A stretch of 64,000 bases of DNA from the NCBI GenBank assembly GCA_001767455.1, contig MELC01000030.1, positions 160,491-224,490 on the forward strand. The letters are read 5' to 3'. This stretch comes from Acidobacteria bacterium RIFCSPLOWO2_12_FULL_66_21. GTDB lineage: Bacteria > Acidobacteriota > Vicinamibacteria > Vicinamibacterales > 2-12-FULL-66-21. The position numbers were made by a program, and so were the translations under genes. Shown here piece after piece: positions 16,696 through 45,594 of the stretch; position 1 is the stretch's first letter; every line of letters begins with the position of its first letter. The notes below the pieces were generated by a model, which searched no databases, was not told the DNA's origin, and was given only the letters and a program-made list of their open reading frames with translations.

Positions 16696-17751
<1,056 letters not shown>

Positions 17752-17766
17752 GGCGACTGCCCCTAC

Positions 17767-17782
17767 CGCAACGTCGGTGCCA
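17767..17782 (-). promoter_or_regulatory. Sigma-54 promoter of activator paralog 1
   Basis: TGGCACCGACGTTGCG on the - strand is an exact TGGCAC-N5-TTGC match. Transcription would start near 17756, about five bases before GTG 17751. A sigma-54 activator gene under a sigma-54 promoter suggests autoregulation. Confidence 0.8.
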
Positions 17783-17905
17783 GCCCCGGAATGGAGCTGA
17801 CCGCGGTGGTGGAGACCCCGGAATCGTGCGGAATTGCAAGGGCTTTTCGCACCCTCTGGTTTCCGCCAGAAGACGGTCCCGTATGGCCGACCATGACAGG
17901 GCGCC

Positions 17906-17983
17906 GGGAATCCGGCAGCGGGCACTCGGGGGCCTGCCACGCACCTTGGACTGCCCGGAAATACACCGGAATTCCGGCAATCC
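17906..17983. promoter_or_regulatory. Cluster of CCGG-centred upstream elements between activator 1 and hemN
   Basis: The segment holds TTCCGGCAATCC (17972-17983, +), the palindrome CCGGAATTCCGG (17966-17977), CCGGAAAT (17955-17962) and TGCCGGATTCCC (17906-17917, -). They sit between two divergent sigma-54 promoters and could serve both. Confidence 0.5.
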
Positions 17984-17999
17984 CGGGGCCCCCCGGTCA

Positions 18000-18015
18000 C
18001 GGCATGCTCTTTGTG
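18000..18015 (+). promoter_or_regulatory. Weak sigma-54-like promoter of hemN
   Basis: CGGCATGCTCTTTGTG keeps the GG and the spacing but has GT instead of the invariant GC at -12. Transcription near 18026 would be almost leaderless for GTG 18028. The position supports it; the -12 deviation weakens it. Confidence 0.35.
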
Positions 18016-18027
18016 ATTGGGGTGATC

Positions 18028-19413
18028 GTGACCACTTCCAACGTTGCGGCGCTGCTGCGGCAGTACGACCGCCCAGGCCCGCGGTATACGTCGTACCCGA
18101 CGGCGGTCGAGTTCAACGACTCGTTCGACGATGCGGCGTATCGCGGGCGCCTCGCGGCCGCGGCTGACGCCGAGGACGACCCGTTGTCGCTCTACGTGCA
18201 TCTTCCCTTCTGCGAGGTGCGGTGCGCGTACTGCGGCTGCATGGTGATCATCACGCAGAAGCGAGAGGTCGCCGCGCGGTACCTCGACTATCTCGAGCGC
18301 GAGATTGCCATGCTCGCGGCGCGGCTTGGAAAACGGCGGCGCCTGGTGCAGCACCACTGGGGCGGAGGCACGCCCACATATCTCGAGCCGGCCCAACTGC
18401 GCCGGCTGCATGCCATCGTCGGCAGCCATTTCGACTTCGATCCCGACGCGGAAGTGGCGATAGAGATCGACCCGCGCGTCACCACGCGCGAGCAGCTCGA
18501 TCTGCTGAAGACGCTTGGCTTCAACCGTCTGTCAATGGGCGTGCAGGATTTCACCCCGGAGGTCCAGGAAGCCATCGCACGGCGTCAATCGGAGCAGCAG
18601 ACGCGCGATCTGTACCAGTACGCCCGCAGCATCGGCTTCGATTCGATCAACGTGGATCTGATCTACGGACTGCCGAAGCAGAGGCTGGAGACGTTCCGGC
18701 GGACCCTCGATTCGGTAGTCGACATGAAGCCCGACCGCATTGCCGTGTACTCCTACGCGCACGTGCCGTGGCTGCGCCCGCACCAGAAGCAGATCGATAC
18801 GGCGACACTGCCGGATACCGGGTTGAAATTCGACCTGTTCGGTGCGGCCATCGAGACGTTCGTGGCGGGTGGCTACGAAGCGATCGGCATGGACCACTTC
18901 GCGCTGCCCGGCGACGATCTGGCGCAGGCGTCCGGCGAACGACGCCTCCACCGCAATTTCATGGGCTATACGACGCGTCCCGCGCCCGACATGCTGGGCG
19001 TCGGCGTCTCGGCCATCGGCGACGTGCGCGGCGCCTTCGCGCAGAACGTCAAGAAGCTGCCGGTCTACTACGCCGCGATCGACAGCGGCCGCTTTCCGAT
19101 CGAGCGCGGCTATGCGCTCAGCGCGGACGATCTCATTCGCCGGACGGTGATTACCGAGCTGATGTGCAACTTCCATGTCGATCGAGGCAGGGTCGAAGCG
19201 CGCTTCGGGATCGACTTTCAGAGTTACTTCGCGGGTGAGCTTGCGGCCTTGTCGGATACGAACGGGCCGGTGGCCGACGGATTCCTCACGATCGGCGGCG
19301 ACGGCCTGGACGTCACGCCGCGCGGCCGGCTGTTCGTACGGAACATCTGCATGGCCTTCGACCGTTACCTGCCGGCGCACGAGGGAAAGCCGGTGTTTTC
19401 GAGAACTATCTGA
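18028..19413 (+). CDS. hemN: Oxygen-independent coproporphyrinogen III oxidase
   Basis: A 461-residue radical SAM enzyme that converts coproporphyrinogen III to protoporphyrinogen IX without oxygen. The N-terminal GPRYTSYPTAVEF and the Cys62-x3-Cys66-x2-Cys69 motif followed by Gly-Cys71 are the HemN hallmarks, and GGGTPTYL follows. GTG 18028 gives an N-terminus that lines up with E. coli HemN; ATG 18004 is the alternative. It heads a heme synthesis group with hemH and hemG and is divergent from the sigma-54 activator. Confidence 0.92.
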   Translation: MTTSNVAALLRQYDRPGPRYTSYPTAVEFNDSFDDAAYRGRLAAAADAEDDPLSLYVHLPFCEVRCAYCGCMVIITQKREVAARYLDYLEREIAMLAARLGKRRRLVQHHWGGGTPTYLEPAQLRRLHAIVGSHFDFDPDAEVAIEIDPRVTTREQLDLLKTLGFNRLSMGVQDFTPEVQEAIARRQSEQQTRDLYQYARSIGFDSINVDLIYGLPKQRLETFRRTLDSVVDMKPDRIAVYSYAHVPWLRPHQKQIDTATLPDTGLKFDLFGAAIETFVAGGYEAIGMDHFALPGDDLAQASGERRLHRNFMGYTTRPAPDMLGVGVSAIGDVRGAFAQNVKKLPVYYAAIDSGRFPIERGYALSADDLIRRTVITELMCNFHVDRGRVEARFGIDFQSYFAGELAALSDTNGPVADGFLTIGGDGLDVTPRGRLFVRNICMAFDRYLPAHEGKPVFSRTI

Positions 19414-24748: not shown

Positions 24749-24764
24749 CGCAAACGAGGTGCCA
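24749..24764 (-). promoter_or_regulatory. Sigma-54 promoter of maeB
   Basis: TGGCACCTCGTTTGCG on the - strand is an exact consensus match. Transcription near 24738 gives a leader of about 16 bases containing GGAGG. Confidence 0.85.
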
Positions 24765-33125: not shown

Positions 33126-33183
33126 CGCCGGTATTCCGACCGGGTCATCGCATCGGCCGGTGATTTTTCAATCTCAGGCCTGA
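33126..33183 (+). promoter_or_regulatory. Upstream elements of the small RNA promoter
   Basis: CGCCGGTATTCC (33126-33137) resembles the TGCCGGNAATCC element. The palindrome TCAGGCCTGA (33174-33183) is followed by ATTTTCG and is shared with the dyad at 44000-44043. Confidence 0.45.
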
Positions 33184-33201
33184 ATTTTCGTGCGGCCGTT
33201 C

Positions 33202-33217
33202 TGGCACGGCGGCTGCA
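33202..33217 (+). promoter_or_regulatory. Sigma-54 promoter of a candidate small RNA
   Basis: TGGCACGGCGGCTGCA has a perfect -24 box and keeps GG-N10-GC; -12 reads CTGCA. Transcription would start near 33228. Confidence 0.6.
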
Positions 33218-33227
33218 CATGAAGCGG

Positions 33228-33345
33228 GTACGATTCGCGGCGGCGCCGGCACCAAAGGCTTCCTCCTTCGCCCTAATACTGGTGCTGCCGCGGATCGGCG
33301 TATTCTCTCAAGGGCGGCCTTTCGGCCGCCCTTGCTGTTTCTTTT
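33228..33345 (+). ncRNA. Candidate sigma-54-dependent small RNA with anti-Shine-Dalgarno loop
   Basis: About 118 bases run from a sigma-54 start to a strong terminator. A stem formed by GCACCA (33249-33254) and TGGTGC (33280-33285), extended by GCGG/CCGC pairing, presents a loop of about 25 bases containing TTCCTCCTTCG, which is the anti-Shine-Dalgarno word of 16S rRNA. Such CCUCC loops occur in small RNAs that block ribosome binding sites or titrate regulators. An ATG at 33219 precedes the expected transcript start, so a coding role is unlikely. No expression evidence is available here. Confidence 0.5.
33309..33345 (+). terminator. Intrinsic terminator of the small RNA
   Basis: An 11-base-pair perfect stem (CAAGGGCGGCC, loop TTTC, GGCCGCCCTTG) is followed by CTGTTTCTTTT. 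No coding gene ends nearby on this strand, which supports a short non-coding transcript. Confidence 0.75.
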
Positions 33346-33418: not shown

Positions 33419-33604
33419 ATGTCGGTGACGCCGGAGGAACTCCGTGCGGCGACGCTGTACCCGTGCTGCGTCGATCTGGTTCCGGTGTTCGAGTTCCTGC
33501 ACGATCAGGTCACGAGCGCCGGCCGCTCGTTCAAGGAGTCCCGCGCGAAGCGCACGGTTCAGAAGGCGCTGGGCGAGCTCCGCGTCATCGGGAAGAACAA
33601 CTAG
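33419..33604 (+). CDS. Small hypothetical protein
   Basis: A 61-residue open frame (MSVTPEELRAATLYPCCVDL... GELRVIGKNN) with alternating hydrophobic and charged residues that look coding. There is no clear ribosome binding site. Its TAG overlaps the stop of the convergent gene. It lies downstream of the small RNA terminator, so it needs its own promoter, which I do not see. Confidence 0.35.
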   Translation: MSVTPEELRAATLYPCCVDLVPVFEFLHDQVTSAGRSFKESRAKRTVQKALGELRVIGKNN

Positions 33605-33948: not shown

Positions 33949-34108
33949 GATGACTTCCGCTCCTATCTGACTTCCGCACCATTGACGATTCCTGCTGCAC
34001 ACGCAGCACGCCGCCGAGTCGTCCGACACTTACAGGAGGAGGAGAGAAGGGGAGGATCTGTGTCTCCTGTCCTCCCCTCCTCCTGTTGATTTCGTTGACA
34101 CAGTGTCC

Positions 34109-42611: not shown

Positions 42612-43643
<1,032 letters not shown>

Positions 43644-43677
43644 TTGTGTTGGGCCTTCGCTCGAAAACGAGCACCAC

Positions 43678-43697
43678 GCCCGGCCTCGAGGCCGGGC
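43678..43697. repeat. Perfect 20-base palindrome between NifU-like and activator genes
   Basis: GCCCGGCCTCGAGGCCGGGC can form a hairpin in the intercistronic gap and could lower activator expression relative to the NifU-like gene, or be a REP-type element related to 45524-45594. Confidence 0.6.
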
Positions 43698-43709
43698 CAA
43701 CCATCCGGG

Positions 43710-43934
43710 TCAGACGACCTGGAGCTCCTCGAATTCCTTGATCTCTTCGCGGAGGGCCATCTCGACCCCCATGTAGAGCGTCATGTGGGCGCTTGGACAT
43801 CCGGAACACATGCCGGTCAGCCGCACGCGCGCGCTGTTGCCGTGCACCTCAATCAACTCGATGTCCCCGCCGTCGGCCTGCATCAGCGGCCGGATACGGT
43901 CGAGGACTGACTCCACGCGCTCTCGGGACAACAT
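43710..43934 (-). CDS. NifU C-terminal-domain protein (Fe-S scaffold)
   Basis: A 74-residue protein equal to the NifU/NfuA C-terminal domain: VLDRIRPLMQADGGDIELIEV, then the CSGCPSA cysteine pair that holds a [4Fe-4S] cluster for transfer to targets. ATG 43934 follows AGGAG. The gene has the best sigma-54 promoter in the window and precedes an activator gene. This fits an Fe-S assembly role within the iron/redox set. Confidence 0.9.
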   Translation of the reverse strand: MLSRERVESVLDRIRPLMQADGGDIELIEVHGNSARVRLTGMCSGCPSAHMTLYMGVEMALREEIKEFEELQVV

Positions 43935-43985: not shown

Positions 43986-44001
43986 AGCAACAGGCGTGCC
44001 A
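43986..44001 (-). promoter_or_regulatory. Sigma-54 promoter of the NifU-like gene
   Basis: TGGCACGCCTGTTGCT on the - strand is a full consensus match including the T after TTGC. Start near 43975, leader about 41 bases. Confidence 0.9.
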
Positions 44002-44043
44002 CGAAAACACGCCAATTCAGGCCTGAATTACGCTGTTTTCGTG
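44000..44043. promoter_or_regulatory. 44-base dyad between divergent sigma-54 promoters
   Basis: The dyad consists of CACGAAAACA (44000-44009), a 4-base spacer, the palindrome AATTCAGGCCTGAATT (44014-44029), a 4-base spacer and TGTTTTCGTG (44034-44043). Its two ends abut the -24 boxes of two divergent sigma-54 promoters. Confidence 0.7.
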
Positions 44044-44045
44044 AG

Positions 44046-44061
44046 CGGCACGGTCGTTGCT
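44046..44061 (+). promoter_or_regulatory. Sigma-54 promoter reading toward the 3' end of the NtrC-like gene
   Basis: CGGCACGGTCGTTGCT matches except for the first T. Start near 44072 would give RNA antisense to the NtrC-like gene that ends at 44101. No + strand gene follows. Confidence 0.6.
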
Positions 44062-45523: not shown

Positions 45524-45594
45524 CGCCCGACCTGAAGGTCGGGCCTGCGCGGCGGCGCGGTGTCATACCGCAGGCCCGACCTTCAGGTCGGGCG
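45524..45594. repeat. Perfect 26-base inverted repeat of CCCGACCTTCAGGTCGGGC
   Basis: Arms at 45524-45549 and 45569-45594 are exact reverse complements over 26 bases, and each arm contains its own inner palindrome (CCCGACCT-GA-AGGTCGGG). It lies between the NtrC-like gene and the receiver protein gene. It looks like a BIME/REP-type element. Confidence 0.8.

Follow-up and report, generated by a model that had tools for sequence, protein, structure and literature searches.

Genomic context and promoter elements

The 64,000-nucleotide stretch of DNA analysed here (hereafter the window) contains, on its forward strand, a sigma-54 (-24/-12) promoter box followed by a long predicted hairpin and an intrinsic terminator. 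On the reverse strand lies an operon composed of a nfu gene, encoding a NifU C-terminal-domain protein, and the gene of a sigma-54 activator without a receiver domain (Table 1). Judged by its gene content, the DNA may come from a Vicinamibacteria-like acidobacterium.

Table 1. Features of the predicted small RNA locus, of the associated sigma-54 promoters and of the hairpin family in relatives
Feature	Position	Strand	Evidence or remark
Sigma-54 box TGGCACCTCGTTTGCG, with GCCTGATATC upstream	24749..24764	-	Precedes malic enzyme-phosphotransacetylase gene
Upstream activator site TCAATCTCAGGCCTGAATTTT, palindrome core TCAGGCCTGA at 33174-33183	33168..33188	+	13 bases identical to the site between boxes 44001 and 44046
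Sigma-54 (-24/-12) promoter box TGGCACGGCGGCTGCA	33202..33217	+	1 mismatch to TGGCACGN4TTGCW
Predicted small RNA, ~115 nt	33228..33342	+	+1 inferred from box; fold -65.1 kcal/mol, z -6.7
Long 5' hairpin, ~21 bp, beginning at +1	33228..33299	+	Predicted fold
Apical loop of 29 nt, CACCAAAGGCTTCCTCCTTCGCCCTAATA, exposed TTCCTCCTT at 33260-33268	33250..33278	+	Unpaired probability at least 0.98
Intrinsic terminator, 11 bp, tail CTGTTTCTTTT	33309..33334	+	Hairpin and T-rich tail
Sigma-54 activator without receiver domain, AAA+ domain with GAFTGA, Fis-type HTH	42612..43700	-	Pfam; proposed activator of the RNA
NifU C-terminal-domain protein (nfu), ahead of activator gene	43710..43934	-	PF01106, E 4e-24
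Sigma-54 box TGGCACGCCTGTTGCT of nfu-activator operon	43986..44001	-	Strict box match
Common palindrome AATTCAGGCCTGAATT	44013..44030		Also at the promoter of the RNA
GATGGGGGCC-loop hairpin copies in relatives	L213-L222, L224, L225, L227-L231, L293		Alignment A4

The box at 33202 carries GG at -25/-24 and GC at -13/-12 in the correct spacing, which would place the transcription start (+1) at 33228. Its strict form, TGGCACGNNNNYTGCW, occurs at two sites in the 6.47-Mb genome, 33202 and 44001 (-), both within the window, the latter standing before nfu and the receiver-less activator gene. The reversed control pattern was commoner (12 occurrences versus 2), so that the rarity of the box is no proof on its own; what raises the box at 33202 above chance is the palindrome TCAGGCCTGAATT just 5' of both strict boxes. 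The gap between the end of TCAGGCCTGA and the box downstream of it is 18 bp at 33202, where the site reads AATCTCAGGCCTGAATT, and 15 bp at 44001, where it reads AATTCAGGCCTGAATT; TCAGGCCTGA is present at four places in the genome, two of them preceding the strict boxes and the remaining two with no box after them. A combined pattern of GCCTGAW and the box gave four matches in the same genome, three of which fall inside the window (the third being the promoter of the malic enzyme-phosphotransacetylase gene), and none for its reversed control. The activator site is thus common to other sigma-54 promoters, with activator genes nearby at 42612 and 44101, and no sigma-70 promoter was found for the RNA. 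Orthologues of the activator at 42612-43700 could be found in about 20 of 60 genomes, at 63-73% identity.

Two further sigma-54 elements were observed. A second activator (16696-18429, -) shares 69% identity with the nfu-linked protein in its AAA+ part, and a sigma-54-like box of its own, TGGCACCGACGTTGCG, lies at 17782 (-). A third box, CGGCACGGTCGTTGCT at 44046-44061 (+), faces away from the nfu promoter on the other side of the palindrome there; transcription from it would cover GC-rich hairpins and run toward the 3' end of a response-regulator gene encoded on the opposite strand.

Predicted transcript and its exposed loop

None of 200 shuffles of the whole predicted RNA folded as well as the native sequence. 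The 75-nt hairpin by itself gave a fold z of -4.7, a stability matched by approximately 1.5% of the 75-nt segments of the window, which is GC-rich; the beginning of the hairpin coincides with the predicted +1, which would lend independent support to the start site. The terminator tail CTGTTTCTTT is present on the plus strand only. Open reading frames across the hairpin fail the codon-position test, that at 33219 begins before +1, and no credible gene lies inside 33228-33342; the predicted RNA is short, non-coding and ended by an intrinsic terminator. A preliminary description of this DNA had placed a sigma-54 box, an internal hairpin and an 11-bp terminator here, without a credible gene, and all of them were found in place; its proposal of a sigma-54-dependent small RNA appears well supported by the box, the shared activator site, the hairpin at +1, the terminator and the lack of a gene. 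The hairpin itself differs from what had been described in having a stem of about 21 bp and, in the predicted fold, a 3-bp GGC/GCC mini-stem within the loop.

The loop exposes UUCCUCCUU, which includes CCTCCTT, the anti-Shine-Dalgarno sequence of the 16S type. CCTCCTT is contained in 0.07% of 29-mers drawn at random from the window; when this pyrimidine-rich loop is shuffled, CCTCCTT turns up in 0.7% of the resulting sequences and the shorter CCTCC in 14%. The computed duplex between the loop and AAGGAGGAA amounts to -12.5 kcal/mol, compared with -14.0 for the standard 16S tail with its Shine-Dalgarno sequence. The exposure claimed in the preliminary description is borne out by the computed unpaired probability, and an anti-Shine-Dalgarno role of the loop, which may repress translation, is plausible. 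A scan of ribosome sites within the window, which had been proposed as a check, covered 56 genes; about six of them exceeded the 5% control level, a signal not strong enough for any target to be named. RNAs titrating CsrA/RsmA display GGA in their loops; the sole GGA of the predicted RNA is paired in the stem, so that the suggested link with these proteins does not fit. The Rfam scan of the window returned no family at gathering thresholds.

Two other folded elements were noted in the window. The strongest fold overall is a near-perfect inverted repeat at 45524-45594 (GCCCGACCTGAAGGTCGGGCCTGCG..., z -10.3). A 17-bp hairpin of GGAGGAGG/CCTCCTCC repeats at 34028-34086, between cusA and the DUF5818 gene and 0.7 kb from the RNA, offers or hides a Shine-Dalgarno-like sequence on either strand.

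Distribution in relatives

Conservation, also put forward earlier as a check, was not seen at the sequence level in the searches below, with a single architectural analogue being recovered. The relatives compared all came from outside the genus of the window. A DNA search of 40 relatives gave no credible homologue of the RNA, and its one 36-bp match lies inside a coding gene and was set aside as chance. A single-sequence covariance model run over 162 genomes likewise found no homologue: most matches, among those shown as alignments, cover little beyond a common terminator of the AAGGGCGGCC...GGCCGCCCTT type, and the best one (L076) proved on checking to be the end of a gene. G007, which belongs to the same family as the window, has kept the nfu-activator operon and also possesses the cusA-DUF5818 genes that neighbour the RNA. 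The RNA itself is absent from the syntenic site, where DUF5818 is followed by another gene, which we take from its protein to be DUF411-like. This absence, both among the relatives and at the G007 site, indicates that the RNA could be young, fast-changing or species-specific.

Another site in G007 (L130, box at 1270 (-), G007:C22:156754-156769) resembled a homologue at first, since its sigma-54 box is followed by CCTCC at +31 and, at +87, by a terminator hairpin of 12 bp; its fold is weak (z -2.0) and its CCTCC is predicted to be largely paired. Across the order, the pattern of box plus CCTCC showed no excess over its reversed form, and lone pattern matches were consequently not trusted without folding. 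Over about 85,000 species genomes, a set from which the records closest to the window's genome may be missing, the combination of activator site, box and TCCTCC gave 30 matches in scattered phyla, none with such a hairpin, indicating that the design is rare.

The analogue comes from G028, in another family of the order, where a 23-bp hairpin (z -5.4) begins at the +1 given by a box TGGCACAAGGGTTGCT, which has GCCTGAATT on its upstream side; the loop of this hairpin, AACAGCCCCCACACCUCCUCC, contains CCUCCUCC. Its stems are unrelated in sequence to those of the window RNA, and on this sequence comparison it is an analogue that supports the architecture and does not amount to conservation; it is a single example, met after inspecting about 75 boxes in 18 genomes, and a pattern for its layout had no match in G015, of the same genus.

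A family of hairpins with another loop

Inspection of relatives also yielded a distinct family of hairpins with a GATGGGGGCC loop. Model R2, built from L012 and L183, together with one extra pattern match in G071, gave 18 credible hairpins. Each of the five genomes of family f5 and of the seven of family f12, both distinct from the window's family but of the same order, has at least one. The loop is invariant in every copy (18/18), compensatory changes occur in 18 of the 26 stem pairs, and a sigma-54 box precedes 17 of the 18 hairpins, which start at +6 to +13. Neither of the two copies scanned matched Rfam; at a permissive threshold on five loci, matches were far below gathering scores, mostly to microRNA-precursor families, and were discarded. 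Like the window RNA, these RNAs have a sigma-54 box, a long hairpin starting no more than about 13 nt from +1 and, in many copies, a GGCCTGA-type site. Unlike it, they carry their own invariant loop and no CCUCC loop; the f5 hairpins are directly followed by a T-rich tract, whereas the window RNA has a second, terminator hairpin; and they were not found in the window's own family, R2 having no match in the window or in its genome. Judged by sequence, the window RNA thus shares the plan of a sigma-54 promoter, an activator-site core and a hairpin at the start, and is not a member of this family. A sigma-54 promoter followed immediately by a long hairpin is a recurring output in the order.

Four of the f12 hairpins (L220, L221, L222 and L224) are closely followed by a conserved small gene that has no Pfam family (MIDREKVLAVLHKRFPG...; L305 10525-10773), and these copies may be leaders. 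The small gene recurs in the vicinity of the activator orthologue in L055, L056, L061 and L064. The CCUCC loop of G028 also contains GCCCCCA, the exact complement of UGGGGGC in the GATGGGGGCC-loop class, the duplex amounting to -17.9 kcal/mol.

Interpretation and alternative explanations

We consider it very probable that this locus specifies a short, activator-controlled regulatory RNA. For its function we tentatively prefer, with confidence falling slightly short of even, a free-standing non-coding RNA of about 115 nt, driven by a sigma-54 activator, whose loop would pair with Shine-Dalgarno sites to lower translation. The promoter, common activator site, hairpin, exposed loop and terminator can be read from the sequence, while transcription, the identity of the activator, pairing in trans and the targets are inferred from them. 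The palindrome at about -49 would be bound by a sigma-54 activator of the Fis type, the likeliest being that encoded next to nfu (42612-43700), which would open the promoter, so that the RNA would be co-produced with the nfu-activator operon and probably also with the malic enzyme-phosphotransacetylase gene. The 5' hairpin could shield the RNA and present UUCCUCCUU in single-stranded form, and, as long as the regulon is active, pairing of the loop with Shine-Dalgarno sequences of the AAGGAGG type could reduce the translation of a group of mRNAs.

The strongest competitor, although we regard it as unlikely, accepts a real sigma-54-driven small RNA and takes its CCUCC loop as incidental, the molecule being, for example, a protein-binding or RNA-sponge hairpin like those of the GATGGGGGCC-loop class. 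Among such hairpin RNAs, the best conserved indeed have another loop: the 18 hairpins share the layout, and often the activator-site core, yet keep a different invariant one, and the complementarity between this loop class and the CCUCC loop of G028 points in the same direction. Nevertheless, the genome of the window has no member of that class and its RNA does not match R2, and a 16S-type anti-Shine-Dalgarno sequence in a loop of 29 nt is, by the frequencies given above, rare by chance.

Improbable, in our estimate, is a cis-acting leader, with the hairpin and terminator attenuating expression of the short gene at 33419-33604, which lies just downstream in the same direction and has coding-like codon-position GC; several f12 hairpins of the GATGGGGGCC class also directly precede a small gene. 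Those f12 cases, though, have no intervening terminator, whereas the terminator here is perfect over its 11 bp and the predicted fold shows no competing antiterminator helix, and the 33419-33604 frame has neither a family match nor a relative in the loci compared. Just as improbable is that no transcript is made, a chance box standing beside a chance hairpin and the terminator serving something else. The outnumbering of the strict box by its reversed control, the share of window pieces as stable as the hairpin and the lack of conservation in the 40-relative and 162-genome searches would all agree with this; however, the palindrome at both strict boxes, the hairpin at +1, the strand and place of the terminator and the recurrence of the layout in relatives make a joint coincidence very unlikely.

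At the scale of the order, it is conceivable, though we would sooner doubt it than rely on it, that a regulon under a sigma-54 activator has time and again produced short hairpin RNAs with freely varying stems, the loop being the functional part. Two loop types would then exist, GATGGGGGCC in f5 and f12 and the anti-Shine-Dalgarno CCUCC in the window species and G028; in G028, where both occur and are complementary, they could bind and silence each other.

To our knowledge, small RNAs are almost uncharted beyond a few well-studied phyla. If the preferred reading of a ribosome-site-binding RNA is true, an activator co-producing it with metabolic genes would make translation respond to a metabolic switch. 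Tracing the regulon also brought up a sigma-54-linked RNA family that is supported by covariation, has an invariant loop, is Rfam-negative in the copies scanned and is directly testable.

Comparison with known systems

Small RNAs driven by sigma-54 and an activator include Qrr, GlmY and CrcZ (PMC10162802, PMC7073468, PMC6296734). The predicted window RNA resembles them in its -24/-12 promoter, its site for an enhancer-binding protein and its end at a terminator, but differs in sequence and fold, is non-homologous by Rfam and has an activator site unusually close to the start (~-49).

The alpha-r14/NfeR1 RNAs of alpha-rhizobia carry anti-Shine-Dalgarno motifs in unpaired hairpin regions, with greatly divergent stems, and mask the ribosome site of mRNAs, which are thereby silenced; NfeR1 itself has three hairpins, each with CCUCCUCCC, has LsrB as its activator and NtrC as its repressor, and is not sigma-54 driven (PMC10746234). 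The likeness lies in the unpaired motif and in a circuit with a sigma-54 activator system (NtrBC in NfeR1), whereas the window RNA has, instead of three CCUCCUCCC hairpins, one internal hairpin with UUCCUCCUU and a terminator, and the window gave no match to any Rfam family model.

CJnc230 (FlmE) of Campylobacter jejuni, which is about 98 nt long and arises by processing of the flgE mRNA, is RpoN-dependent and has a putative anti-Shine-Dalgarno stretch (PMC11187230). Its motif, CCUU, lies single-stranded between two stem-loops, whereas that of the window RNA would be presented in the loop of the hairpin that begins at +1.
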